A stretch of DNA of 64,000 nt, from positions 1-64,000 of IMG/VR virus record IMGVR_UViG_3300020172_002590. One strand, written 5' to 3'. Source of the stretch: a virus. The first letter of the stretch is position 1; every line of letters begins with the position of its first letter. The notes under the pieces were generated by a model that did not search any database, had not been told where the DNA came from, and saw nothing but the letters and a program-made list of their open reading frames with translations. Position numbers and translations under genes: made by a program. This document shows, one piece after another, positions 9,026 to 38,697 of this stretch.

Positions 9026-9667
9026 ATGCCAGAGTTAAACGCAAATATACCACCAATTGAATGCTATGTAAGAGGCAACTATCTTCGTGATCAAAAGGAT
9101 TCACACGATAAATACTTCCCATGTATGATTTTTGGAGTCGCCTCAATTCAAGGAAGAAGTCCCCTATTTCATTTTCTAATGGAAGATGGCGGTGTTTGGT
9201 GGAGAATGCCAATTAGTGCGTTCTGTGCAGAGCCTGATACCCCTGAAGTGGACATTCACGACCTTGTGTTGTGGAATTCTTTCAGTCCTCATGTGACCGT
9301 AACCGAGTTTCAGGCTATGAGAAACATGAGAATGACATATGTAAGCCGCTCAGGAGAGTTTGTAAAGGGTAAATATCTCTTTACGCTTGACTGGCATGCC
9401 CCAGATGACAATACCACCAACCTTGGATTCAGTACAAATCCCGGTCAACATAAGTGTGGTCATGTAATATTGCGGGATGATGGTAATTTTGCCATTCAGC
9501 CAAATAATCGGGTCCGTCTATTTGACCCTTCATACACGACAAAAGATGGTAACCTTATTGATAGATTCATTAATACAAGAAAATGGGATGTGGAGGATGC
9601 TTCCAAGTGGAGAACTTCCGATGATGACCATTACTATTATGAAATCAATAATAAATTACAAGGATAA
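9026..9667 (+). CDS. Conserved phage hypothetical protein
   Basis: A 213-residue, strand-rich, soluble protein (DKYFPCMIFGVASIQGRSPL; LFTLDWHAPD; GHVILRDDGNFAIQPNNR). I associate this layout with conserved hypotheticals in phages, but cannot name a function. GGAAAGAACA precedes the ATG. Confidence 0.7.
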   Translation: MPELNANIPPIECYVRGNYLRDQKDSHDKYFPCMIFGVASIQGRSPLFHFLMEDGGVWWRMPISAFCAEPDTPEVDIHDLVLWNSFSPHVTVTEFQAMRNMRMTYVSRSGEFVKGKYLFTLDWHAPDDNTTNLGFSTNPGQHKCGHVILRDDGNFAIQPNNRVRLFDPSYTTKDGNLIDRFINTRKWDVEDASKWRTSDDDHYYYEINNKLQG

Positions 9668-10564: not shown

Positions 10565-10875
10565 AAATTTAATACAAATTTTTGACGGTAAACTCCCGAT
10601 CTCAATTGTGATGAAACTCAACCGAACCCGTTTTTTCTAGCGAAGCAACTTTTCCCCAAATTTTAGTATGCAGTCGTGGAAGGCTATGCATGCATACGGT
10701 CGTGGAGAGTCTTTGTCTGTTCGCGGGGTCAATGCCATCGGATACCCCTGGGGGTACCCCTGCCCGATGAGATCCTGCATATTATGCAAGCTCGCGCCTG
10801 CCTGCCCCCGTAGATAGTGGATATCGTTGCATAAATATGCGGCGGGGTGCATAGAATAAATATGTGCGGGGGGGG
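10565..10875. other. GC-rich non-coding junction
   Basis: About 300 bp where GC rises sharply compared with the left flank. It holds GTCGTGGA twice, ATGCATGCAT, a mirror-like CCCCTGGGGGTACCCC block, two ATAAATATG repeats and a G8 run at 10869-10875. Open frames on either strand here have no ribosome-binding site and are not called. Confidence 0.6.
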
Positions 10876-10904
10876 TTGTGTTGGGTCGCCTATTGGGATA
10901 GTAT
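10876..10904 (+). promoter_or_regulatory. Cassette promoter P1
   Basis: TTGTGT at 10876-10881, 17 bp, TAGTAT at 10899-10904. First of eleven promoters of the same build in this region. Confidence 0.75.
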
Positions 10905-10909
10905 TTACT

Positions 10910-10936
10910 TATCGGGCGGGGCGGTCTCGCCCGATA
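10910..10936 (+). promoter_or_regulatory. 5' UTR hairpin before ribosome-binding site
   Basis: TATCGGGCG (10910-10918) pairs perfectly with CGCCCGATA (10928-10936). It ends directly before the GAAAGG ribosome-binding site, so it could control translation or stabilise the message. Confidence 0.5.
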
Positions 10937-10947
10937 GAAAGGCAGTA

Positions 10948-11250
10948 ATGCGTTCAGTAAATATGGCAATTGAGGAGGGTCTGGAAAGTGTTCTTTACAC
11001 TGTCGGACACGAATCAGGTCGCCGTTCCGATATTGTCCACTTCCTTTACAAGGAAGATATGGAGACTTATGTCCATTCAATCCTTGTGCCCTTGCACTTG
11101 GAAGATGATGGATTAGACCCCGATGACACCACCTCAATGTTCGCCAAGTATGACAAGTACGGCAACTATGAGGTCATCGTCAATATTGACTCTAAGACAT
11201 GGATTAAGAGTTTCAAGGTCACTGCTACCGAACGGTTCATTCAATACTGA
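10948..11250 (+). CDS. Cassette protein, hypothetical
   Basis: A 100-residue acidic protein. The ATG at 10948 follows GATAGAAAGGCAGTA, which decides the start over an upstream in-frame ATG at 10864 that lies before the promoter. The codon usage is GC-rich at third positions, unlike the left flank. No domain recognised (HDIVHFLYKEDMET-like charged helices, then beta-rich YGNYEVIVNIDSKTWIKSF). Confidence 0.65.
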   Translation: MRSVNMAIEEGLESVLYTVGHESGRRSDIVHFLYKEDMETYVHSILVPLHLEDDGLDPDDTTSMFAKYDKYGNYEVIVNIDSKTWIKSFKVTATERFIQY

Positions 11251-11257
11251 TACCCCG

Positions 11258-11324
11258 CTTGCCCCGCCCGCAAGGGCGGGGCAAGTCCCCCCAATGAGAC
11301 CCCGCCCGCAATGCGGGCGGGGTC
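11258..11324 (+). terminator. Tandem GC-rich terminators
   Basis: First stem: CTTGCCCCGCCC, loop GCAA, GGGCGGGGCAAG (11258-11285). Second stem: GACCCCGCCCGC, loop AAT, GCGGGCGGGGTC (11298-11324), followed by TTTCC. Both are perfect 12-bp stems. Confidence 0.85.
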
Positions 11325-11649
11325 TTTCCATTCCCGCCCCATTCACGCCCGCCCCGCAAACGGCTGCATCGATCGTGCTAGGACCGGGACCGAGCTCTAC
11401 ACCCTGCCATATAACTGTACGCATTTATGGGAATTGAGTATGGTCTCTTTATGTGGTTCTCTACACCACCCCAAATAGAGGCTACAAATTATGGGGATTG
11501 AGTATACGTCAAATTATGGGAAACGCTGGCCTTTCAAATTATGGCAGCCTATTTTTTCGAGGGTGTAGGGAACAAAGGTACGACTTTCTTACACCCTTTC
11601 GTCTGACGGTGTATGTGCGAGAAATTTCAACACAAATTCTGAACAATAG
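11325..11649. other. Non-coding spacer with CAAATTATGG repeats and a GGGTGTA hairpin
   Basis: CAAATTATGG occurs three times between about 11480 and 11545, and ATTTATGGG once near 11430. GGATTGAGTATA/GAATTGAGTATG is also repeated. An inverted repeat with GGGTGTA (11561-11567) and TACACCC (11590-11596) is the first member of the hairpin family described below. No supported gene. Confidence 0.6.
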
Positions 11650-11678
11650 TTGTGTTTCCCGATAGTTTCCTGTAATCT
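11650..11678 (+). promoter_or_regulatory. Cassette promoter P2 (leaderless)
   Basis: TTGTGT at 11650-11655, 17 bp, TAATCT at 11673-11678, then exactly 6 nt to the ATG at 11685. With no Shine-Dalgarno, a leaderless message is likely. Confidence 0.8.
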
Positions 11679-11684
11679 AACACT

Positions 11685-12194
11685 ATGACAAAGCGTCAAG
11701 CCAAAGCAGGTAATGGTCGCGTGGTGACCAATACCCCCAAGAGTGCGAAGGGTCAAAGCACAGTTACCAAGTCCGCTGTATTGCGTCACATTGCGACAGC
11801 ACGAACAGTGAACCTTAGTCGTGGAGTAAAGGCACACTACGACAACGAAGGCACACAGCGTTTAGCGGAAGCCATTGTCAAGTCATTCCGTATGCCAACA
11901 CTCACGGAAGCGAAACTTGCCAAGAAAGGCAAGGACATGCCCAAGAGCGCACAAGACGGAGCAATGCGTAGAGAGTTTGCTGTAGCACACAAGGCTATCG
12001 CCATAGACATCTCTATCATTCTCGGAGAGAGAAAGGGTGGACAGATTACACACAACCGCCCTGAGAACAACCTACACATGAAACTCGCAGGTATTGCCGT
12101 AGCAATGGGGCTACCTGCTAAGACTTTCTATCCCGTTCGTTCTGAAGCCGTTCGTGACGGTGAAGTGCCTACGGTGTACATAGTACGCCGATAG
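11685..12194 (+). CDS. Basic cassette protein A, paralogue of the protein at 14212
   Basis: A 169-residue basic protein with a disordered Lys/Thr-rich N-terminus. It aligns along its length with the 14212-14694 protein: GVKAHYDNEGTQRLAEAIVK against GAKANYDNEGAQLLAKAVVR, then DISIILGERKGGQITHNRPE against NVSDILGEGKNGEIIHDRPE, and matching VPTVYIVRR/IPQVFIVRK ends. No known domain recognised; basic charge suggests nucleic-acid binding, which is inference. It starts directly after promoter P2 without a leader. Confidence 0.75.
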   Translation: MTKRQAKAGNGRVVTNTPKSAKGQSTVTKSAVLRHIATARTVNLSRGVKAHYDNEGTQRLAEAIVKSFRMPTLTEAKLAKKGKDMPKSAQDGAMRREFAVAHKAIAIDISIILGERKGGQITHNRPENNLHMKLAGIAVAMGLPAKTFYPVRSEAVRDGEVPTVYIVRR

Positions 12195-12216
12195 AGCGTT
12201 CATAATCCCCCCATTG

Positions 12217-12244
12217 GAGAGCCTACCCGAAAGGGTAGGCTCTC
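12217..12244 (+). terminator. Terminator of cassette A
   Basis: GAGAGCCTACCC, loop GAAA, GGGTAGGCTCTC: a perfect 12-bp stem with a stable tetraloop. No U-run follows. Confidence 0.75.
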
Positions 12245-12264
12245 TCTGTGTGTTATGGTCTGGG

Positions 12265-12302
12265 GTGGTGTGACAAAGCCCCAGGGGGCTTTGTCACACC
12301 AC
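12265..12302. repeat. Long inverted repeat, 18-bp perfect arms
   Basis: GTGGTGTGACAAAGCCCC (12265-12282) pairs with its exact complement at 12285-12302 across a 2-nt loop. It lies between a terminator and the next promoter, like the GGGTGTA repeats. Confidence 0.8.
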
Positions 12303-12330
12303 TTCGTATGAGCGTGTCTCTATGAATAAA

Positions 12331-12393
12331 TTTAGTGCAAATTCCAAAAATAATCAGAGAATAGTTGTGTTTCCTACTTTTCCGTGTTACATT
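12331..12393 (+). promoter_or_regulatory. Cassette promoter P3 with upstream element (leaderless)
   Basis: Upstream element TTTAGTGCAAATTC (12331-12344), TTGTGT at 12365-12370, 17 bp, TACATT at 12388-12393, then 6 nt to the ATG at 12400. The upstream element recurs before P4, and in shorter form before P5 and P7. Confidence 0.75.
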
Positions 12394-12399
12394 CAGGGT

Positions 12400-12624
12400 A
12401 TGAGAAACTTTTCATACATCACACCAACACTTGACCACAACCTATTCCTGATTTCATTCGCCCGCCCAATTCGCATTCAGAGCAAGTATCTTGACTGCAT
12501 TGTGCGTAAGCGTTTCAATGACGCAATGTTGCGACACTACTCAGGTACTGTCATCATTTTCAATGTGTCTCAAATTGACGAGCGCAATTTCCGTGTTCTC
12601 TGTCTCGTTACGCCAACAGCGTAG
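12400..12624 (+). CDS. Cassette protein, small hypothetical
   Basis: A 74-residue basic protein (MRNFSYITPTLDHNLFLISF at the start; IRIQSKYLDCIVRKRFND in the middle). The leaderless start at 12400 is set by promoter spacing; an in-frame ATG at 12322 lies upstream of the promoter. Unrecognised. Confidence 0.6.
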   Translation: MRNFSYITPTLDHNLFLISFARPIRIQSKYLDCIVRKRFNDAMLRHYSGTVIIFNVSQIDERNFRVLCLVTPTA

Positions 12625-12640
12625 CGAGATAGAGAGCCAG

Positions 12641-12679
12641 GCAGGTGTAACGCCTTGGCATAGCCAGCGTTACACCTGC
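12641..12679. repeat. GGTGTA inverted repeat
   Basis: GCAGGTGTAACGC (12641-12653) pairs perfectly with GCGTTACACCTGC (12667-12679). It also sits where a terminator for the 12400 gene would be expected; no separate terminator was found. Confidence 0.85.
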
Positions 12680-12706
12680 GTCTATGTAGTCACTCACTCA
12701 GGCAAA

Positions 12707-12768
12707 TTTAGTGCAAATTCTGAAAATGTTTCTAGAAAACTTGCTATTCCAAATTTTTCAGTTATACT
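12707..12768 (+). promoter_or_regulatory. Cassette promoter P4 with upstream element (leaderless)
   Basis: TTTAGTGCAAATTC at 12707-12720, TTGCTA at 12741-12746, 16 bp, TATACT at 12763-12768, then 7 nt to the ATG at 12776. Confidence 0.7.
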
Positions 12769-12775
12769 CTTACCT

Positions 12776-13060
12776 ATGAAGAAATACAACTCATTCCAAA
12801 TGACACTTCTACCCGTTCGTGAAAACGAAGCAGGTCGTGACATTTACACCGTAGCCGTAACCATTCCCAACTATGAGTTGGGCGAGGACATTCATTTTCT
12901 CGGACTTTCCGCTCGTCAGGCGTTCATTGACGCAACGGAATTCATCAACGGAATTATCGGGCGTATGTGCGGTTTCTGTAGCGGTGTCACCACTGAAGGC
13001 GATGAGACATTCCGTAGCGCGGGCATCTGCCAGCCCTGCTACGAGAAAATCTCACTCTAA
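12776..13060 (+). CDS. Cassette protein with zinc ribbon
   Basis: A 94-residue protein: a strand-rich N-terminus (residues 1-35), a helix (46-60) and a C-terminal CGFC (65-68) and CQPC (85-88) pair, fitting a treble-clef or ribbon zinc site. The start follows from promoter spacing. Function unknown; it may bind nucleic acid. Confidence 0.7.
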   Translation: MKKYNSFQMTLLPVRENEAGRDIYTVAVTIPNYELGEDIHFLGLSARQAFIDATEFINGIIGRMCGFCSGVTTEGDETFRSAGICQPCYEKISL

Positions 13061-13080
13061 GAAAAGGACAGCACACAGGA

Positions 13081-13102
13081 GAGCGGGTCGCAAGACCCGC
13101 TC
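13081..13102 (+). terminator. Terminator
   Basis: GAGCGGGTC, loop GCAA, GACCCGCTC, then TTTTCCTTTT. The stem and loop are identical to those at 13544-13565. Confidence 0.9.
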
Positions 13103-13116
13103 TTTTCCTTTTCCGG

Positions 13117-13155
13117 GCAGGTGTAAGAGTTCGGCATAGCCGTTCTTACACCTGC
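13117..13155. repeat. GGTGTA inverted repeat
   Basis: GCAGGTGTAAGA (13117-13128) pairs perfectly with TCTTACACCTGC (13144-13155). Its loop (TTCGGCATAGCCG) can form a second small stem. Confidence 0.85.
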
Positions 13156-13182
13156 TTGTCTAAACACAACATAGAACCAGCT

Positions 13183-13272
13183 TTTAGTGCAAAAAATTAG
13201 TTGTAGTGTACAAATACTTTTTTCAAGTTTTTTTGGAATTGGGGTTGTGTTTGCCTTTGGATTTGTTATGCT
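13183..13272 (+). promoter_or_regulatory. Cassette promoter P5 with upstream element
   Basis: Upstream element TTTAGTGCAAAA (13183-13194), TTGTGT at 13245-13250, 16 bp, TATGCT at 13267-13272. The segment TTTTTGGAATTGGGGTTGTG before and into the -35 is repeated almost exactly before P8. Confidence 0.75.
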
Positions 13273-13278
13273 GTGTGT

Positions 13279-13299
13279 ATGGCAATAGTGCCAGAGTGA
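13279..13299 (+). CDS. Possible six-residue leader peptide MAIVPE
   Basis: An ATG lies exactly 6 nt after the -10 box of P5, the same spacing as the leaderless starts of other cassettes. It opens a six-codon frame ending in TGA at 13297-13299, just before the AAAGGA ribosome-binding site of the next gene. It may be a real leader peptide or a relic of a leaderless start. Confidence 0.35.
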   Translation: MAIVPE

Positions 13300-13310
13300 A
13301 AGGAACTCCA

Positions 13311-13517
13311 ATGCGAGTCTTTGATAGCCCCGACAACAAACTGTCCGACATTCTTGACCAAATGCAGGCAGAAGCCGTTGCTTGGGAGAGCGTATTCTCA
13401 CCACAGTTCATTGCAGGAATGATTTACGCCTGCGAGTGCCTGCGTAACAGCGCAAGCAACATGAAGGGCAACGGCGTTCTCTTGAACGAAGCAGTCCTAG
13501 TTCGCCCAAAAAAATAG
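13311..13517 (+). CDS. Cassette protein, small helical
   Basis: A 68-residue protein with helical segments (SDILDQMQAEAVAWESVF; FIAGMIYACECLRNSASNM). The ATG at 13311 follows GTGAAAGGAACTCCA. An earlier in-frame start at 13206 would precede the promoter. Unrecognised. Confidence 0.65.
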   Translation: MRVFDSPDNKLSDILDQMQAEAVAWESVFSPQFIAGMIYACECLRNSASNMKGNGVLLNEAVLVRPKK

Positions 13518-13543
13518 AAAGGAGAGTTTTTCTTCTGCGGGAA

Positions 13544-13565
13544 GAGCGGGTCGCAAGACCCGCTC
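13544..13565 (+). terminator. Terminator
   Basis: GAGCGGGTC, GCAA, GACCCGCTC, then TTTTG; an exact copy of the stem at 13081-13102. Confidence 0.88.
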
Positions 13566-13578
13566 TTTTGCTTTCCTG

Positions 13579-13617
13579 GCGGGTGTAGATCTATTGGCTC
13601 CGCCGATCTACACCCGC
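13579..13617. repeat. GGGTGTA inverted repeat
   Basis: GCGGGTGTAGATC (13579-13591) pairs perfectly with GATCTACACCCGC (13605-13617). Confidence 0.85.
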
Positions 13618-13656
13618 AGGTACGAAATAACAACACATAAAGATTTGAGTATGTGT

Positions 13657-13685
13657 TTGTAATTGCCTTTAGTAACTGATAGGGT
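13657..13685 (+). promoter_or_regulatory. Cassette promoter P6 (leaderless GTG start)
   Basis: TTGTAA at 13657-13662, 17 bp, TAGGGT at 13680-13685, then 6 nt to GTG at 13692. The constant spacing supports a GTG leaderless start. Confidence 0.65.
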
Positions 13686-13691
13686 GAAGCC

Positions 13692-13904
13692 GTGACAAAC
13701 ACACACACGCCGACTGAAGTTACAGAGGCAAAATCAGCACCCCGCTACTACGAAGAATTGGTCAAGGACTTAGTTGAGACCCTTGCCCTCGGAGACTTTC
13801 AGGAACTGTTCCTGAACTTCTTGTCTCACTACGAGGACAACCTTGAGGTTCTCAAGACCGCCCGTATCTGCTACGGAGACCTCATAGCCGAAATCTACGG
13901 CTAA
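13692..13904 (+). CDS. Cassette protein, small acidic
   Basis: A 70-residue acidic helical protein starting at GTG (YYEELVKDLVETLALGDFQE; LSHYEDNLEVLKTARICYGD). Start chosen by promoter spacing. Unrecognised. Confidence 0.65.
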   Translation: MTNTHTPTEVTEAKSAPRYYEELVKDLVETLALGDFQELFLNFLSHYEDNLEVLKTARICYGDLIAEIYG

Positions 13905-13924
13905 GACCCCCAGCCCCCCCAGCG

Positions 13925-13951
13925 GACCCCCTCTCAGAGCGAGAGGGGGTC
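13925..13951 (+). terminator. Terminator
   Basis: GACCCCCTCTC, loop AGAGC, GAGAGGGGGTC, then TTGCT. Perfect 11-bp stem. Confidence 0.85.
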
Positions 13952-13960
13952 TTGCTATTG

Positions 13961-14107
13961 GCGGGTGTAGACGCTCGGCTCCGCTCGACTCCTACACCCG
14001 TGTAATAAAAGCAAATATACCTTTATGTAGAGTATACAAATTCCAATTGATATTGACTTTGCTGCAGGCGGGTGTGGTGCAAAGCAAACGCAGTGATCCA
14101 CACCCGC
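13961..14107. repeat. Two consecutive GGGTGTA/GGGTGTG inverted repeats
   Basis: The first has GCGGGTGTAG at 13961-13970 facing CCTACACCCG at 13991-14000. The second has GCGGGTGTGG at 14068-14077 facing CCACACCCGC at 14098-14107. The space between holds ACCTTTATGTAGAGTATAC. There is no gene between them: either a cassette was lost here or the repeats spread on their own. Confidence 0.8.
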
Positions 14108-14134
14108 GAGCTTGATACGATTGTTCCGAGCGTT

Positions 14135-14205
14135 TTTAGTGAAAAAATGTAATCAGAAAAAAAATTGTGTTAGTAGTTGTATTTACTAATGGAGTGCGTT
14201 AGTAT
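14135..14205 (+). promoter_or_regulatory. Cassette promoter P7 (leaderless)
   Basis: Upstream element TTTAGTGAAAAAAT (14135-14148), TTGTAT at 14177-14182, 17 bp, TAGTAT at 14200-14205, then 6 nt to the ATG at 14212. A further TTGTGT lies at 14165. Confidence 0.75.
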
Positions 14206-14211
14206 GTCCCT

Positions 14212-14694
14212 ATGGCATCAACACCTAAGACTACTGCTAAGCAGGGTCGCAATACCAAGTCCACCCCGACCGCAAAGGTCACCTACACGGCAGTAATGGC
14301 GCACATCGCTAGTGCTCGTAGTTTCCGCCTCGCACAAGGCGCAAAGGCTAACTACGACAATGAAGGCGCACAACTACTCGCAAAGGCTGTCGTGAGAGCG
14401 TCTGCTATGCCAACAATGGCGAGTGAAGGTATCACTACCGACAAGGCTCGCCCAATGGCTCAGGCTCGCCGTGAGTTCGCTCGCAAGCGCAAGGCTCACC
14501 TACTCAATGTTTCCGACATTCTCGGTGAAGGTAAGAACGGCGAGATTATCCACGACCGCCCCGAAAATACCATTCGTATTCGCCTTGCGTCTATTGCTAA
14601 GGCAATGGGACTGCCAGCAGACACCTACTACGCCGTGAGAGCGAATGAGTACGCCGTAGGCGACATTCCGCAAGTGTTCATCGTTCGCAAATAG
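14212..14694 (+). CDS. Basic cassette protein A', paralogue of the protein at 11685
   Basis: A 160-residue basic protein with a Lys/Thr-rich tail (residues 1-25) and a core shared with the 11685 protein, including GAKANYDNEGAQLLAKAVVR, DILGEGKNGEIIHDRPEN and MGLPADTYYAVR. The two genes have similar length, promoter type and terminator layout, so the whole cassette may have duplicated. Function unknown; nucleic-acid binding is a guess from charge. Confidence 0.75.
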   Translation: MASTPKTTAKQGRNTKSTPTAKVTYTAVMAHIASARSFRLAQGAKANYDNEGAQLLAKAVVRASAMPTMASEGITTDKARPMAQARREFARKRKAHLLNVSDILGEGKNGEIIHDRPENTIRIRLASIAKAMGLPADTYYAVRANEYAVGDIPQVFIVRK

Positions 14695-14720
14695 CGAACG
14701 CCTAACCGCCCCCCCCCAAT

Positions 14721-14748
14721 GAAGCCCCGCTCGTCTGAGCGGGGCTTC
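14721..14748 (+). terminator. Terminator
   Basis: GAAGCCCCGCTC, loop GTCT, GAGCGGGGCTTC. Perfect 12-bp stem. Confidence 0.85.
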
Positions 14749-14759
14749 ACATCGTATGG

Positions 14760-14798
14760 GCGGGCGTAAGATCTGCGCAAGCTTGATCTTACGCCCGC
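14760..14798. repeat. GGGCGTA inverted repeat
   Basis: GCGGGCGTAAGATC (14760-14773) pairs perfectly with GATCTTACGCCCGC (14785-14798). The first TGTAATATTACA palindrome starts 2 nt later. Confidence 0.85.
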
Positions 14799-14887
14799 GT
14801 GTAATATTACATTGAGACCTTTATGTTTAGTACATAATTTCAAATTATGATTACCTAGAAAAAATAGAAACATTTTTGGAATTGGGG

Positions 14888-14916
14888 TTGTGTTTCTCTA
14901 TTAGTTTGGTTAGTAT
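14888..14916 (+). promoter_or_regulatory. Cassette promoter P8
   Basis: TTGTGT at 14888-14893, 17 bp, TAGTAT at 14911-14916. The upstream TTTTTGGAATTGGGG block matches P5. A leader of about 30 nt with GAAAGAA precedes the ATG at 14955. Confidence 0.8.
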
Positions 14917-14954
14917 GTACATACAAGGCGCAAGCCCCTAACGAAAGAAAAAAA

Positions 14955-15245
14955 ATGAAAGTTCCACCGCTAAAAGTGCAGACCATTGTCCACCTAGAAA
15001 TGCCGTACGACATGTATCTTTTTGTTCTGTATTGCATGGCAACCTACAACAACCCAACAGATGAAGACGCAAAAGCGCTACATAAGAATGCTTGGGAGTT
15101 TGCAGAGTCATTGGGCGCAGAGTCACCTCACCATTTCATTGCAGAAAATGTTCCGTTTATGAAGAACTACTGCACTCAGTTGTTGCAACTGTCAAGCACA
15201 GCAAAAGAGCAAGCAGACCTCGCTTACTCGGCTCTGTATCGCTAA
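14955..15245 (+). CDS. Cassette protein, helical hypothetical
   Basis: A 96-residue mostly helical protein (MPYDMYLFVLYCMATYNNPT; DAKALHKNAWEFAESLG; LLQLSSTAKEQADLAY). AACGAAAGAAAAAAA precedes the ATG. Unrecognised. Confidence 0.65.
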   Translation: MKVPPLKVQTIVHLEMPYDMYLFVLYCMATYNNPTDEDAKALHKNAWEFAESLGAESPHHFIAENVPFMKNYCTQLLQLSSTAKEQADLAYSALYR

Positions 15246-15250
15246 TCCGT

Positions 15251-15274
15251 TGGGGGCAGGTAACACTGCCCCCA
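15251..15274 (+). terminator. Terminator
   Basis: TGGGGGCAG, loop GTAACA, CTGCCCCCA. Perfect 9-bp stem directly after the stop codon. Confidence 0.75.
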
Positions 15275-15281
15275 TAAGCGG

Positions 15282-15320
15282 GCAGGTGTAAGGCTCTTGC
15301 TTTGCGAGCCTTACACCTGC
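15282..15320. repeat. GGTGTA inverted repeat
   Basis: GCAGGTGTAAGGCTC (15282-15296) pairs perfectly with GAGCCTTACACCTGC (15306-15320). TGTAATGTTACA follows at 15324. The rest of the gap up to 15513 has only TGTAAT-type and CTTTATGG repeats. Confidence 0.85.
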
Positions 15321-15513
15321 GTCTGTAATGTTACACGATCAGAAAAATTGAGTGTGTATATGTAATATTACTTAGCCTATCTTTATGGATGTAATATTAC
15401 AATCCTGAACTTTATGGAGCTGTGTAATATAAGAGATCCTGTGTAACATAAGCTGTAATTTTAGAAAACCCGTGTAATACTAGAAAAAAACCTGAAAAAA
15501 CTTGGAAAGGTAG

Positions 15514-15542
15514 TTGTGTTCCTTAGGTAGTTCCTGTATCTT
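15514..15542 (+). promoter_or_regulatory. Cassette promoter P9
   Basis: TTGTGT at 15514-15519, 17 bp, TATCTT at 15537-15542. A 65-nt leader follows (GGAAACGCCCC; GCGGAAAGTATCCGC small stem) before AGGAAAGACA and the ATG. Confidence 0.75.
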
Positions 15543-15607
15543 TATAAATACCAAAGGGAAACGCCCCGATGGTGCGGAAAGTATCCGCTAGTTAGATAGG
15601 AAAGACA

Positions 15608-15898
15608 ATGGACTTTGAGTTTATTGACGAAAACGACATTCAGGCTGTACGCCGTGGACGTAAGTCCACAGCCCCCGCCGAATTGGTAGATGCGTTTGCC
15701 AAGATGCCAAAGGGTAAGGCTATTCGCCTTACAGGTCTACGCCAAGACCCAACTAGCCCTGAATATAAGAATGACAAGGCAACGGTCTCTGCCACCATTC
15801 GCACAGCAGGCAAGTTGGCAGGCGTAGCGGTCTCTATCAGTTGGTCACCCGATGGTGTTCCACAGGTAAAGACCAAGATGGTCAAGGCTAAGAAGTAG
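15608..15898 (+). CDS. FEFIDE-family basic protein B1
   Basis: A 96-residue protein starting MDFEFIDENDIQAVRRGRKS. After the RGRKS segment it has a helix (PAELVDAFAKMPKGKAIRL), a variable loop, a second helix (ATIRTAGKLAG) and a strand (VAVSISWSPDGVPQV), with a Lys-rich tail. It is paralogous to the proteins at 16464 and 17117. RGRK resembles an AT-hook core. I infer a small DNA-binding protein; the family is unknown to me. AGGAAAG precedes the ATG. Confidence 0.75.
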   Translation: MDFEFIDENDIQAVRRGRKSTAPAELVDAFAKMPKGKAIRLTGLRQDPTSPEYKNDKATVSATIRTAGKLAGVAVSISWSPDGVPQVKTKMVKAKK

Positions 15899-15922
15899 CA
15901 CCCCCCGCTACCAGCCTTGATA

Positions 15923-15954
15923 GGGGCTAGGGTGTCTGTCATCACCCTAGCCCC
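15923..15954 (+). terminator. Terminator, followed by a second GC stem
   Basis: GGGGCTAGGGTG, loop of 8, CACCCTAGCCCC. A second perfect stem, CCCGCCCGCC with GGCGGGCGGG, follows at 15964-15990 and overlaps the next inverted repeat. Confidence 0.8.
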
Positions 15955-15985
15955 GCCCCTTACCCCGCCCGCCCTAATCAGGCGG

Positions 15986-16025
15986 GCGGGCGTAATGAAG
16001 TCGTTCCTTTGTTCATTACGCCCGC
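15986..16025. repeat. GGGCGTA inverted repeat
   Basis: GCGGGCGTAATGAA (15986-15999) pairs perfectly with TTCATTACGCCCGC (16012-16025), followed by TTTT. Further right to 16246 there are TGTAAT-type repeats only. Confidence 0.85.
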
Positions 16026-16246
16026 TTTTCTAATCGTAACATTACACACAAATTTAGTATGAATTTGTAATATTACATAGAGTAAATCCTGGAGCTTGAT
16101 CGTGTAATATAAGAGATCGTGTAATATAAGATCGTGTAATAATAGACCGTGTAACTTTATGTCAAGCTGTGTAACATAAGGGATCCCGTGTAACATAAGA
16201 AACGGAGATACTTGCACACTACAACTATTATTTTTTCCGTTTGACG

Positions 16247-16275
16247 TTGTGTTTCCCTATTGGCTCGGATAATCT
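16247..16275 (+). promoter_or_regulatory. Cassette promoter P10
   Basis: TTGTGT at 16247-16252, 17 bp, TAATCT at 16270-16275. Confidence 0.8.
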
Positions 16276-16463
16276 AATACTTGTCAGATTGACACTCGGT
16301 TACGGGGTTCGGTTAGGCAGGTGATTTTCACCTAGCAGTTTCCGCCCGTTTCGGTTCTGACCTAGCAAGAGTGAAGGGTCGTAGTAGGCGCACCATAATC
16401 CCCTACAAGTCACCATTGGCAATGGTGATTATTCAAAAAAAACTTTCAAGAAAGGCTTTCATA
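16276..16463 (+). ncRNA. Long structured 5' leader of the 16464 gene
   Basis: The leader is about 185 nt, far longer than for other cassettes. Visible stems: AGGTGA with TCACCT, and CACCATT with AATGGTG shortly before the A-rich ribosome-binding site. GACCTAGCA/CACCTAGCA is repeated. It could be a translation-controlling leader bound by a protein or ligand; no known riboswitch class was recognised. Confidence 0.4.
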
Positions 16464-16766
16464 ATGGATTTTGAATTTATTGATGAAGGCGACATTGAAG
16501 GCGTAAAGCGTGGTCGCAAGTCGCAGGTTCCACAAGAACTCATTGACTTGTTCAAGGCTATCCCAGCAGGCAAGGCAGTCCGACTGTCTGAGTTTGCAGG
16601 TGACCCAACAGACCCCGATTACAAGACACACAAGCAGAACGCAGGTTCTACTATCCGTCAGGCTAGTAAGCAGGCAGGCATTGAAATCCGTATTTCATGG
16701 TCGCCCGCAGGCGTTCCGCAGGTGTCTCGTAAAGCGCCTAAAAAGGTCGCCAAGTCTGCCAAGTAA
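16464..16766 (+). CDS. FEFIDE-family basic protein B2
   Basis: A 100-residue protein starting MDFEFIDEGDIEGVKRGRKS, closely paralogous to the 15608 protein: the same helix (PQELIDLFKAIPAGKAVRL), the same IRQASKQAG helix, ISWSPAGVPQV strand and a Lys/Ala tail. The ATG at 16464 after AAGAAAGG is chosen because it gives the same N-terminus as its paralogue. Proposed DNA-binding role is inference. Confidence 0.75.
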   Translation: MDFEFIDEGDIEGVKRGRKSQVPQELIDLFKAIPAGKAVRLSEFAGDPTDPDYKTHKQNAGSTIRQASKQAGIEIRISWSPAGVPQVSRKAPKKVAKSAK

Positions 16767-16829
16767 TTAGGCAGGCGTAGCGCACATACCGCCTAGAGTG
16801 CCGAAGCACTGCAACGGTATGGAAAATGT

Positions 16830-16862
16830 AACCCCGACACACTCGCCAAGTGTGTCGGGGTT
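16830..16862 (+). terminator. Strong Rho-independent terminator
   Basis: AACCCCGACACACT, loop CGCCA, AGTGTGTCGGGGTT, then CTTTTTTT. Perfect 14-bp stem. Confidence 0.95.
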
Positions 16863-16883
16863 CTTTTTTTGCCCGCTTACGGG

Positions 16884-16921
16884 CGGGTGTAGATCACTGC
16901 GTTTGCTACGCACTACACCCG
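16884..16921. repeat. GGGTGTA inverted repeat
   Basis: CGGGTGTAG (16884-16892) pairs with CTACACCCG (16913-16921). TGTAATGTTACA follows at 16922. The rest of the gap up to 17056 contains CTTTATG repeats and another TGTAATATTACA. Confidence 0.8.
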
Positions 16922-17056
16922 TGTAATGTTACACATCTTTATCGTAAATTATAATACATATTTGTAATCACATTATAGCTAATATATTTTATTACCTTTA
17001 TGTAATCTTTATGGGGGTATGTAATATTACATACCATCGCGCAAATAAAAAAAAAG

Positions 17057-17082
17057 AAAGGGTAGCATTTCTGCTACCCTTT
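17057..17082 (-). terminator. Terminator of the minus-strand FEFIDE gene
   Basis: AAAGGGTAGCA, loop TTTC, TGCTACCCTTT. Read on the minus strand it is followed by a long T-run. Confidence 0.88.
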
Positions 17083-17116
17083 CCCGGACTCTTAGTGAAC
17101 TATTTGTTTTATTTAT

Positions 17117-17431
17117 TTAGGAAACTTTTTTCGCGTATGGGACATTCTTTATGTCCCAAGTAATGCGAACCTTTTTCCAACCTGCAATTTTTGCCTGATT
17201 ACGAATAATCGCGGAATTTGCAGCCTTAGCAGTTTTCTTATCTTCCGCCGTAACAAATTCGTCACCCAATGCCAAGTTTGCTACCTTGACAATTTGACCA
17301 ATTTTTGCCTTAGCAAAAAACTCAACCATCTCAGGAATAACGACAGCCTTACGCCCACGCTTTACTGATTCAATTTCTGATTCTTCAATGAACTCAAATG
17401 AGAATCCATTTTCTTCGTTTTTTGGAGCCAT
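17117..17431 (-). CDS. FEFIDE-family basic protein B3, inverted
   Basis: A 104-residue protein; residues 11-27 read FSFEFIEESEIESVKRG, then RKAVVIPEMVEFFAKAKIGQ and ANSAIIRNQAKIAGWKKVRI. It shares the order of segments with B1 and B2 but is more diverged, AT-rich, and on the opposite strand, so it may be an older copy. AAAAGAGAGAAAA precedes the ATG. Likely DNA-binding by analogy only. Confidence 0.72.
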   Translation of the reverse strand: MAPKNEENGFSFEFIEESEIESVKRGRKAVVIPEMVEFFAKAKIGQIVKVANLALGDEFVTAEDKKTAKAANSAIIRNQAKIAGWKKVRITWDIKNVPYAKKVS

Positions 17432-17828
17432 TTTTCTCTCTTTTCTTTTAGTTATTTGGCTATTTATTTGACACGTTCACCGAGTCATTTATCACGATAT
17501 CGGGGAGAATGGCGAACAACTACCGATAAATAAAAAAATATAAAAAAGATCCATTTCTCAACAAAATACGCGATCTAATCCAGGATGTAATATTACAGGG
17601 GTTGTAATATTACACGGATGGGTGTAAGTGAGTCGGTACCCGAACTTACACCCATTTGTAATATTACACGATACTATAAAAATATAGTGTGTAATTTAAG
17701 AATTGCTACCTTTATTTCCATCTAATCGCGTATCTAATCCTGGATCTAATTCTTTATCTTTATATACTTTATGGAACCCCCAAACCTTTACAAATTATGT
17801 GAACTTCTAAAAAAGCTATTTCCGCACG
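17432..17828. other. Non-coding spacer with GGGTGTA repeat and palindromes
   Basis: Between two divergent cassettes. It contains ATGGGTGTAAGT (17618-17629) paired perfectly with ACTTACACCCAT (17644-17655), flanked on each side by TGTAATATTACA copies. Repeats of CTAATC and CTTTATGG follow. No gene seen. Confidence 0.75.
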
Positions 17829-17857
17829 TTGGAAATCTAATTTCTACACGGTAGGAT
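17829..17857 (+). promoter_or_regulatory. Cassette promoter P11
   Basis: TTGGAA at 17829-17834, 17 bp, TAGGAT at 17852-17857. The leader of about 60 nt ends in CCGAAAGGAAAATCTA before the ATG. Confidence 0.6.
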
Positions 17858-17919
17858 ATCTATATGGTGAGAAATATCTCAATAAACCAAATCCAATTCA
17901 TAACCGAAAGGAAAATCTA

Positions 17920-18408
17920 ATGTCTCCGATTGAAAACTTATTCAATGAACCAACAAAAGCTTTAGCAATTATTGCACATCTTTCAAAAAATCACGAAATT
18001 GTTGCTACAACAATTACTGAACTTCATATGCAATTAATTAATGCAACTTCTACTGCAAACCAATTAGATAACTTTTTGCAAAAGTTAAATGATATGCAAA
18101 TCCCAAAAAATATGTTTAACAATTTGGAGGCTGCTATTTCTGAACGTCAAAAAATGGAAAATCTTTTAGACAATAATGAAATTAGTCGTGCTGATTTAGA
18201 CCTATACATAATGGAAACCTTTTCTTTAACTGATGACCTTTGTTCAATTGGACAACAATTTGTAACACTTGTTGGAAAAAATGACCAATTTAATCTTCAA
18301 AACATTGTTGTTAACTTTGACACAATTTTTGTAAAACTATATAACCTTTTTCACGAAGTTGCTTTAACCACATTTGAACTTGTTAAAGAATACGGTTCTC
18401 TTAACTAA
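17920..18408 (+). CDS. Cassette protein, all-helical hypothetical
   Basis: A 162-residue protein, predicted helical (LAIIAHLSKNHEIVATTITE; NLEAAISERQKMENLLDNNE), weakly acidic, AT-rich codons unlike the GC-rich cassettes. AAAGGA precedes the ATG. Unrecognised. Confidence 0.65.
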   Translation: MSPIENLFNEPTKALAIIAHLSKNHEIVATTITELHMQLINATSTANQLDNFLQKLNDMQIPKNMFNNLEAAISERQKMENLLDNNEISRADLDLYIMETFSLTDDLCSIGQQFVTLVGKNDQFNLQNIVVNFDTIFVKLYNLFHEVALTTFELVKEYGSLN

Positions 18409-18424
18409 TAACTAATAAATAACT

Positions 18425-18454
18425 AAAAGGGTAGACGTTTGTCTACCCTTTTTT
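18425..18454 (+). terminator. Rho-independent terminator
   Basis: AAAAGGGTAGAC, loop GTTT, GTCTACCCTTTT, then TTT. Perfect 12-bp stem, and the last plus-strand terminator before the divergent region. Confidence 0.93.
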
Positions 18455-19259
18455 TATGCCCAAATGCCGGGCGTGTAATATTACACCATTTGTAATATTA
18501 CACGGTGATGGACAAATTGTAGTATGTAATATTACAGTGCTATCTTTATGAAAAACTAAAACTAAATTCTAATCTAAATCCAAATCCTAACATCCCGGCA
18601 CCTTTATGGCGGGGCAATAGGCTTACTAATACTACGTCTGATACCTGATCTATTCCTAGAGGGTATTGACTACCTATAGATAGGTATTACAGCATTGTAA
18701 TTTGCACATTTATAGCCTCAAAACACACACTAAAATTCTCACAAATAAAAACCGCCTGATTTATGAGCATTTTACTGCCTTTTTGATTGATTTTATAAAC
18801 AATTAGTTTGTTTTTTTATATAATTAGTAACATTTTCTCACCTTTATGGGGGGTACTTATCCACAATATTATCCACAATTCGGGGGATAAGTCTTATTCT
18901 GTATAGAGATAGATAGAGTATACAATGTCTGATCGCGCACCAGTTTATCTAATATATTTCTACCTTTATTTAGTACGCTAAACAAGCCCATTATACAATT
19001 CTGGATATAAATCGGAAGTAATTCCTTAGCACATCTCCGTATGCCTTAAAGGAATCTATTTACCTACCTAATCTATATCTAATCTATACTTCTTCTATCT
19101 AGGTATCTATTAAATATCTAGACCGGTTTTTTCAGAATCCATTATTTCTTCCAATCCCCTAGCCATAGAGTTATGGAGAATCTTCCTCAGTTTCCGAACC
19201 ATTCTCCATGTGTAATACCAGAGTCTTATCCTTCTATAAAGACTTATCATAACCCCTCC
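18455..19259. other. Divergent non-coding region, candidate replication origin
   Basis: About 800 bp without a supported gene, between the plus-strand left part and the all-minus right part. It holds three TGTAATATTACA copies (18474-18536), CTTTATGG copies, two perfect DnaA-type boxes TTATCCACA (18857-18865 and 18869-18877, 12 bp apart) and AT-rich, TCTATCTA-rich sequence to 19.1 kb. Strand switch plus DnaA boxes plus AT-rich DNA fit an origin. This is inference; GC skew was not computed. Confidence 0.5.
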
Positions 19260-25217: not shown

Positions 25218-25219
25218 AG

Positions 25220-25292
25220 CGCTTTCAGTAAGATTCGAACTTACAACCTACTGATTAGAAGTCAGTTGCTCTATCCATTGAGCTATGAAAGC
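25220..25292 (-). tRNA. tRNA-Arg (UCU)
   Basis: A full cloverleaf reads on the complement: acceptor GCTTTCA/TGAAAGC, D arm GCTC-AATGGATA-GAGC, anticodon arm ACTGA-CTTCTAA-TCAGT, T arm GTAAG-TTCGAAT-CTTAC, discriminator G, no encoded CCA. The anticodon UCU reads AGA (and AGG), a codon favoured by an AT-rich phage over a richer host. Confidence 0.95.
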
Positions 25293-25960: not shown

Positions 25961-26158
25961 ATTTCGCTCCTTTAGTTGTTGGGTTTACGATTCTGTTATA
26001 CACAGATAACGCATTAGCATAAGCTAAGGTTGCGAAACGAGGTCATAGCATATTTATCTACAATTCAATGCTCACTCGCTTCACTTACATTTATTCATAG
26101 GCATCACCTTTCCTTTAAAAAACAGATAAATACAATTATATCACTTAATGCAATATAG

Positions 26159-26232
26159 TGCCGAATATAGGAATTGAACCTATTCAAAAAACTTATAAGG
26201 TTTTCTCCGTCAAACCGTTCGGACCATTCGGC
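26159..26232 (-). tRNA. tRNA-Ile (UAU), reads AUA
   Basis: On the complement the acceptor GCCGAAT pairs perfectly with ATTCGGC, the D arm is TCCG-AACGGTTTGA-CGGA, the anticodon arm AAAAC-CTTATAA-GTTTT and the T arm ATAGG-TTCAATT-CCTAT, discriminator A. The anticodon in the loop is TAT. Odd features: position 8 appears to be G instead of U, and the variable loop is only 4 nt. AUA is frequent in AT-rich DNA, so the tRNA would help the phage. CCA is not encoded. Confidence 0.8.
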
Positions 26233-37927: not shown

Positions 37928-38329
37928 TTACTCAGAATCAATTGCTGTATACAGTTCTTCAACATTTTGATAATGAGGAAGAATAACAATTTCACAATCA
38001 CCATAATCAAGTTGACGAATTGTGTAATTATCTTGCGTAATCAAAACTTGAAGCATTTCTAATTGGTAAATGCGTAACTCATCTCTATGTTCTTTACTCA
38101 ATCTTGCAGCATAATCATAATGCTCAATATTGATCAAACGCAAATTCTTAATACTTTTACGAATTTCCATTCGAGCAAAAATCATAAGTATTTCTGAACC
38201 AGCATCATTACCCCAATAAGTTCTATCTTCCAAAGGAGTATCAAAAATAGAAGGTGTTTTTTCTACTTTTTCTCCACCAAAACCTCTTGATGGAACAATT
38301 TCACTTTCGTCAATAAATTCAAATTCCAT
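37928..38329 (-). CDS. FEFIDE-motif protein B4
   Basis: A 133-residue protein beginning MEFEFIDESEIVPSRGFGGE. The first eleven residues match MDFEFIDENDI and MDFEFIDEGDI of the cassette proteins, but the rest (a helical region EILMIFARMEIRKSIKNLRL and a beta-rich end) does not align with them in an obvious way. The start at 38329, overlapping the upstream TAA by one base, is chosen because it gives the same N-terminus; an earlier in-frame ATG would add four residues. Confidence 0.68.
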   Translation of the reverse strand: MEFEFIDESEIVPSRGFGGEKVEKTPSIFDTPLEDRTYWGNDAGSEILMIFARMEIRKSIKNLRLINIEHYDYAARLSKEHRDELRIYQLEMLQVLITQDNYTIRQLDYGDCEIVILPHYQNVEELYTAIDSE

Positions 38330-38697
38330 TACTTCATCCAATCTTTGTTGTAACCATTAATTTCTGAATAATCTCTACCATCAACAATCAGCTTATCGCC
38401 ATTTTTTGAATAGTAGTAAAACAAACCATTTTCAAATTCAATATTCATTTCTTGTTTGAGTTTCTGAATAGCAATCAAAACACTACTCTTTAATCCTTCA
38501 TCAATTATTGAATCAATAAAACACATTGTTCTAATCTGTGTATCAAGATTTTTCGTAAGAATTCTTACAATATCAAATCTTGCTACATTCATTTTGTCAT
38601 TATGAACAATTACTTTTTCATTTGCCAAAATACGAAGCTTTTGCTCAAACTCATTCGCACGATTTTTCCAATACTGAATGTCATCATTATTGCTCAT
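38329..38697 (-). CDS. Hypothetical protein
   Basis: A 122-residue protein (IQYWKNRANEFEQKLRILAN; a helix-rich start). ATG at 38697 follows AAGGAAGAACAAA. Unrecognised. Coupled to the FEFIDE gene by TAATG. Confidence 0.6.
   Translation of the reverse strand: MSNNDDIQYWKNRANEFEQKLRILANEKVIVHNDKMNVARFDIVRILTKNLDTQIRTMCFIDSIIDEGLKSSVLIAIQKLKQEMNIEFENGLFYYYSKNGDKLIVDGRDYSEINGYNKDWMK

Follow-up and report, generated by a model that had tools for sequence, protein, structure and literature searches.

A GC-rich island of exchangeable single-gene cassettes in an uncultured freshwater phage, probably an early region of host-takeover type

The stretch of DNA analyzed here (the window) comprises bases 1-64000 of the 81,457-bp IMG/VR record IMGVR_UViG_3300020172_002590, from an uncultured freshwater phage. 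At 10.9-18.5 kb of the record lies an island of eleven single-gene units, each ordered as promoter, single open reading frame (ORF) of 68-169 amino acids (aa), terminator hairpin, second hairpin and next promoter. Rightward genes extend up to 10.56 kb on one side of the island, and leftward genes begin at about 19 kb on the other. GC content is 0.46-0.48 in the island versus 0.32-0.34 in the leftward gene region. The original prediction, made from the letters alone, had described the other genes of the phage as tightly packed, and this is so: about 95% of the 19-81 kb segment is coding with a median gap of -1, compared to 52% of the island, where intergenic gaps measure 151-565 bp. The phage carries a WhiB-like gene, and its terminase, TerL, is closest to those of actinobacterial siphophages (42% identical to that of the Streptomyces cluster BE phages, the nearest cultured relatives). 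Both features point to an actinobacterial host. A DNA megablast of the phage against phages returned no match.

The elements of the island are as follows (promoters as -35, spacer length, -10).

10876-11350, plus strand: cassette 1; TTGTGT-17-TAGTAT; ORF 10948-11250 (100 aa); GC hairpins 11257-11286 and 11298-11322
11560-11597, plus strand: second hairpin GGGTGTA..TACACCC upstream of cassette 2, identical in a relative
11650-12304, plus strand: cassette 2; predicted leaderless ORF 11685-12194 (169 aa); terminator 12216-12245; second hairpin 12263-12304
12365-12681, plus strand: cassette 3; predicted leaderless ORF 12400-12624 (74 aa); second hairpin 12639-12681 only
12741-13157, plus strand: cassette 4; TTGCTA-16-TATACT; predicted leaderless ORF 12776-13060 (94 aa, CxxC...CxxC); terminator 13078-13104; second hairpin 13115-13157
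13245-13617, plus strand: cassette 5; upstream reading frame 13280-13300; ORF 13311-13517 (68 aa); terminator 13540-13569; second hairpin 13579-13617
13657-14107, plus strand: cassette 6; TTGTAA-17-TAGGGT; predicted leaderless ORF 13692-13904 (70 aa, GTG start); terminator 13924-13951; second hairpins 13962-14000 and 14068-14107
14177-14811, plus strand: cassette 7; TTGTAT-17-TAGTAT; predicted leaderless ORF 14212-14694 (160 aa), a paralogue of ORF 11685; GC hairpin 14722-14747; second hairpin 14760-14798; palindrome 14800-14811
14888-15401, plus strand: cassette 8; ORF 14955-15245 (96 aa); terminator 15251-15274; second hairpin 15282-15320; palindrome 15390-15401
15514-16077, plus strand: cassette 9; ORF 15608-15898 (copy 1 of a family with an RGR motif); hairpin 15923-15954; second hairpin 15984-16027; palindrome 16066-16077
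16247-17031, plus strand: cassette 10; leader of ~190 nt; ORF 16464-16766 (RGR copy 2); terminator 16830-16862; second hairpin 16883-16922; palindrome 17020-17031
17054-17431, minus strand: opposite-strand cassette; ORF 17117-17431 (RGR copy 3); terminator 17054-17085
17586-17668, no strand assigned: three TGTAATATTACA palindromes (17586, 17603, 17657) and second hairpin 17620-17653
17652-17670, plus strand: left copy of direct repeat CCATTTGTAATATTACACG; its 834 spacing is the length of the segment missing from a relative
17829-18452, plus strand: cassette 11; weak promoter-like TTGGAA-17-TAGGAT; ORF 17920-18408 (162 aa); terminator 18425-18452
18486-18504, plus strand: right copy of CCATTTGTAATATTACACG; palindromes at 18474, 18491 and 18525

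Several of these features go beyond the original prediction, namely the leaderless starts, the second hairpins, the island-only palindromes, the opposite-strand cassette at 17117-17431 and the jump in GC. That prediction did place all eleven -35 boxes correctly, and its 16-17 nt spacers were confirmed. The -35 box is TTGTGT at 10876, 11650, 12365, 13245, 14888, 15514 and 16247, with the variants TTGCTA (12741), TTGTAA (13657), TTGTAT (14177) and TTGGAA (17829). The -10 boxes are TAGTAT (10876, 14177, 14888), TAATCT (11650, 16247), TACATT (12365), TATACT (12741), TATGCT (13245), TAGGGT (13657), TATCTT (15514) and TAGGAT (17829). The unit at 17829 is the weakest and is atypical, being AT-rich with a poor -35. 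Within 10600-18600, the pattern TTGT[GA][TA]T-N15..17-TANNNT matched ten times on the plus strand and once on the minus strand; in 300 dinucleotide shuffles the mean was 0.17 and the maximum 2. Since the pattern and its statistics were made after the sites had been seen, they gauge uniformity and are not an independent prediction. A generic sigma-70 scan found no excess of promoters (23 versus 24.7), and hence the case for promoters rests on their array-specific similarity. The closest relative, G001 (90.6 kb), can be aligned across the entire island. Between the window phage and a relative, all ten comparable promoters have unchanged spacing and no indels; base changes are fewer in the hexamers (8/120) than in the spacers (23/168; p = 0.08).

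In five of the eleven genes (11685, 12400, 12776, 13692 and 14212), the start codon lies 6-7 nt past the -10, a coincidence with p of about 4e-6 when judged by the rate at other offsets. An mRNA from such a promoter should begin at the start codon, so these five mRNAs look leaderless. A leaderless six-codon reading frame, MAIVPE* (13280-13300), also lies between the promoter and ORF 13311; it reads MAIAPE* in the relative.

Terminators are enriched (18 versus 9.8 +/- 2.6). It had been predicted that most genes have their own perfect-stem terminator, and indeed every unit but 12400 has such a hairpin, several of them without a good U-run. Most units carry a second hairpin as well, with ends that are mostly GGTGTA/TACACC-like and a variable interior. 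Between two phages these hairpins preserve their pairing through compensatory changes, for example three double changes at 12263-12304. An Rfam scan gave nothing over gathering thresholds. All ten copies of the palindrome TGTAATATTACA in the 81-kb record lie within the island. Repeats of this type are common to four phages (the window phage, G001, G003 and G009), and in G003 all 44 copies of the core GTAATATTAC, counted on both strands, lie inside the island.

Might the palindromes and hairpins be mainly operators, making the array the regulon of a phage DNA-binding protein and the movement of cassettes described below incidental? Each array does have its own palindrome or motif (TGTAATATTACA here, TGTAAACTTACA in array L214, GTTAGGnnnnCCTAAC beside the promoters of array L143), confined to the island where tested, and in type B arrays the hairpin precedes the promoter by a nearly constant distance. 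However, the window phage has no palindromes near cassettes 1-6, its hairpin-promoter distance varies and no regulator was identified. We therefore consider it quite improbable that regulation is their main role, although operator function would be compatible with, not exclusive of, the explanation that we favor, in which such elements serve recombination. In L143 (~11.3-16.3 kb), GTTAGGnnnnCCTAAC or a close variant lies just upstream of all nine array promoters and is likely the operator of a putative array-wide regulator.

Comparison with related phages, which the original prediction had proposed as a check for gain and loss of whole cassettes, uncovered gains, losses and horizontal exchange. 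G001 lacks the unit 17829-18452. The segment absent there measures 834 bp, as does the spacing between the two 19-bp copies of CCATTTGTAATATTACACG, and G001 retains one related copy. As the more distant G003 has a homologue of the cassette 11 gene (45% identity), deletion in G001 is the simpler reading. Conversely, G001 holds an extra cassette in the slot of cassette 9, between TAGTATGAAATTGYAATATTACAC repeats 417 bp apart. G003 has a cassette that matches it at 95.6% identity over 432 bp, although similarity between the two islands is otherwise 66-76% along their long matches. The shared block has palindromes at both ends, and its slot differs: it precedes the first RGR gene in G003 and follows it in G001.

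Exchange also occurs within cassettes. ORFs 10948, 12776, 14955 and 15608 have strongly diverged between the window phage and G001, with synonymous divergence (dS) of 0.58-3.1 compared to 0.02-0.18 for the other seven. ORF 10948-11250 is at the high end (49% aa identity, dS 3.1) and ORF 12776-13060 at the low end (dS 0.58). Yet the intergenic scaffolds are 90-97% identical, and most flanks are 90-100% identical. The edges are sharp around ORF 14955-15245, itself 71% identical in nucleotides, whose flanks are 90-100% identical in the nearest windows: identity stays at 90-100% as far as the start codon, falls to 43-87% within the gene and returns to 93-100% from the stop codon onward. The downstream boundary is less sharp for ORFs 10948 and 15608. 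Most island ORFs are under purifying selection in this comparison; in ORF 13311-13517 (68 aa), nonsynonymous divergence (dN) is 0.107 versus a dS of 0.024 between the two closest phages, and positive selection is possible. A conserved element is present at the junctions where genes were gained, lost or swapped. At the sequence level, we conclude that four ORFs were replaced by diverged alleles inside kept scaffolds and that cassettes have been gained, lost and transferred between phages one by one.

What moves the cassettes? An integron-like, site-specific system would use the second hairpins or palindromes as the sites of a dedicated recombinase. Cassettes do end at palindromes, and the hairpins are conserved with compensatory changes. 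However, neither tyrosine integrase (PF00589) nor serine recombinase (PF00239) was found in seven of these phages, while the PF00589 search was positive in 14 control genomes; this absence speaks against both integron-like movement and prophage morons. Moreover, each cassette has its own promoter, the junctions vary, their 19-24 bp repeats could serve general recombination, and allele swaps happen within cassettes, at gene edges. We regard a dedicated recombinase as very improbable. Homologous recombination through the scaffolds would be the economical mechanism, by analogy with what is proposed in accounts of the PeSL (early promoter plus stem-loop) cassettes of T4-like phages (PMC4503421, PMC3950731).

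A GC-rich single-gene island lies at the same place in six near-complete relatives (G001, G003, G005, G007, G008 and G009), where it is close to the counterpart of window gene 9026-9667; some of the relatives are incomplete contigs. Viral contigs contain at least 599 relatives of this flanking gene, many of which have no island next to them. Other uniform promoters occur in sister phages: TTGAGTACACTTACTTG in G008 (10 copies), TTGAGTACACATTCTCAATGCCTAGGTA in G005 (9) and TTGAATACACATTTT in G007 (6). Further arrays were found in L141, L143, L182, L184, L214 and most of L220-L232. Across seven arrays, the nearest promoter was in the same genome for 54 of 54 promoters, even where the cassettes encode homologues up to 85% identical. 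When only the part outside the search motif was compared, the figure was 54/55, against 14/55 for random 20-mers. Judged from these comparisons, promoters are homogenised within each array. A second promoter-like element, TTTAATACACATTCTCA, lies ~98 nt upstream of the main one in most cassettes of G007 (57.7-62.7 kb), with the hairpin between the two.

Codon usage sets the islands apart as well. In seven phages, AGA accounts for 0-17% of island Arg codons and for 55-64% elsewhere, and each of the seven encodes tRNA-Arg(TCT), which reads AGA. Two tRNA genes of the window are given here.

25219-25292, minus strand: tRNA-Arg(TCT), matching the codon avoided in the island
26158-26232, minus strand: tRNA-Ile(TAT)

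Avoidance of AGA would be expected if the island genes were translated before the phage tRNAs exist, and expression that early would predict what is seen across the seven freshwater islands measured, namely the same shift in GC and codons in all of them.

The proteins themselves offer few leads. Three cassette proteins had no relatives in cultured phages. The RGR-motif family numbers two to three copies per island; in a motif search of ten records it was island-only. No known relatives of it were found, bacterial genomes having been searched with one peptide pattern only. Homology to Lsr2 is not supported: despite the RGR motif, hhalign against LukeCage gp6 gave a probability of 8.5%. An ORF in the main operons (37928-38341, minus strand) has the same FEFIDESEI start as the RGR family without RGRK; FEFIDESEI is possibly a shared N-terminal interaction motif.

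The original prediction had likened the region to a moron array or a modular accessory island. The second description stands, with cassettes gained, lost and exchanged; the first holds by analogy only, for the units' own promoters and terminators and their aberrant GC. Independently acquired morons would be foreign genes brought in by illegitimate recombination, each with a promoter and terminator and independent of the lytic programme. Promoter-gene-terminator units, orphan proteins and GC and codon usage unlike the rest of the genome all agree with this. But a fixed, syntenic location, promoters homogenised within each genome and the lack of an integrase in the seven phages are not what one would expect if unrelated insertions were being expressed from a prophage, and every examined island keeps two to three members of the RGR family. 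Independent acquisition is thus unlikely.

The nearest cultured relatives offer a closer parallel. Streptomyces cluster BE phages (Stanwilliamsviridae; PMC5764925, PMC8612146) have a ~11-kb direct terminal repeat. In LukeCage, a member of this cluster, the repeat contains 26 small single genes with ~100-bp gaps and their own -10s and terminators; promoter-like -10s precede 15/26 genes in the repeat versus 10/48 (p = 0.002). Its GC is 0.55 versus 0.48, and it has the same codon shift as the freshwater islands. Genes for ThyX and a glycosyltransferase are collinear, in the same orientation and on the same side of the island and of the LukeCage repeat. Both the island and the Stanwilliamsviridae repeat are GC-rich arrays of small single genes lying on the side of ThyX. 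The two differ in content: no common cassette protein was detected, and the Lsr2-like gene of the cluster BE array has no detectable match in the window island. Nor do PMC5764925 and PMC8612146 describe the cassette flux and promoter homogenisation seen in the islands.

Taken together, the LukeCage repeat, the codon shift and the SPO1 analogue considered below lead us to infer early expression and a takeover role, and to suspect terminal redundancy. We think it probable that the island is an early region of host-takeover type in a strictly lytic actinobacterial phage, its single-gene cassettes diversified by scaffold recombination. Each small gene would have its own copy of an array-wide promoter, read by the host RNA polymerase, and its own terminator, and each cassette would be transcribed once the DNA enters, before phage tRNAs are present. 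The conserved scaffolds (terminator, second hairpin, palindrome and promoter) would double as homology for recombination. Single genes could then be deleted, inserted, allele-swapped or moved among phages with expression undisturbed, and promoters would become homogenised inside each genome. The island lies where cluster BE phages carry their long terminal repeat, and terminal redundancy is possible for it too.

Several observations weigh against this explanation. Pfam and PHROGs searches of the cassette proteins gave no significant function, and Foldseek with two AlphaFold models (pLDDT 77 and 74) gave no match at E <= 0.001; the original prediction had likewise called nearly every small protein unrecognised. 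The synteny with LukeCage consists of two genes only, at ~32% identity. Three relatives (G003, G007 and G009) have circular assemblies; in two of them the ends overlap cleanly by ~125 nt, a pattern compatible with a collapsed terminal repeat as well as with circular permutation. ORF 17920 lacks the island codon shift (GC3 0.20). Finally, the shift could instead signal foreign origin: PMC8612146, which reported the GC difference of the cluster BE repeat, read it as block transfer from an unknown host.

A bolder extension, which we offer tentatively and hold to be doubtful, is that the island is a dedicated gene-exchange locus. Terminally redundant, it would have its scaffold homology, homogenised promoters and hairpins co-selected to make counter-host genes interchangeable population-wide, and its host-adapted codons would let any cassette function immediately in a shared host.

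Cassette-by-cassette turnover, with its breakpoints, is demonstrated here in an uncultured freshwater phage group, and the idea of shuffling by promoter and stem-loop is carried beyond T4-like phages. Several dozen small orphan genes become candidates for early anti-host factors, and an alternative is offered to one-block transfer from an unknown host as the origin of the GC-rich cluster BE repeat.

How does the island compare with other known systems? Lambdoid morons (PMC1524935) likewise have a short ORF, their own promoter and terminator and aberrant GC, but they are single insertions in temperate phages, whereas here an array lies in apparently lytic phages. Among mycobacteriophages, the 17-bp palindromes of cluster O and the SAS/ESAS of cluster K (PMC4351075, PMC3203893) are also phage-specific, intergenic repeated palindromes or inverted repeats, some of which flank indels, and leaderless mRNAs are predicted in cluster O as in the island. 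Those repeats are spread genome-wide, however, and most cluster O sites lie away from promoters, whereas TGTAATATTACA is island-only.

PeSL cassettes, as the accounts cited above present them, have an early promoter and stem-loop in intergenic gaps, and their conserved sequence allows modular shuffling of small genes among related phages. The island shares the promoter beside a stem-loop in an intergenic gap and the conserved element at gain, loss and swap junctions. It seems to work alike without being a member: by its TerL the phage is not a T4-like myovirus, its promoter differs from the T4 early promoter, all cassettes lie in one island, there are extra hairpins, island-only palindromes and leaderless starts, and the promoters differ among sister phages.

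The host takeover module of SPO1 (PMC6873191) consists of mostly small early genes, clustered in the terminal region behind promoters typical of high expression, that attack host processes. It is built of small operons, unlike the single-gene units of the island, and its function and terminal location are established, whereas for the island both are argued by analogy. The promoters and codon usage of the island would nonetheless fit an early, strong-promoter cluster of the SPO1 type.

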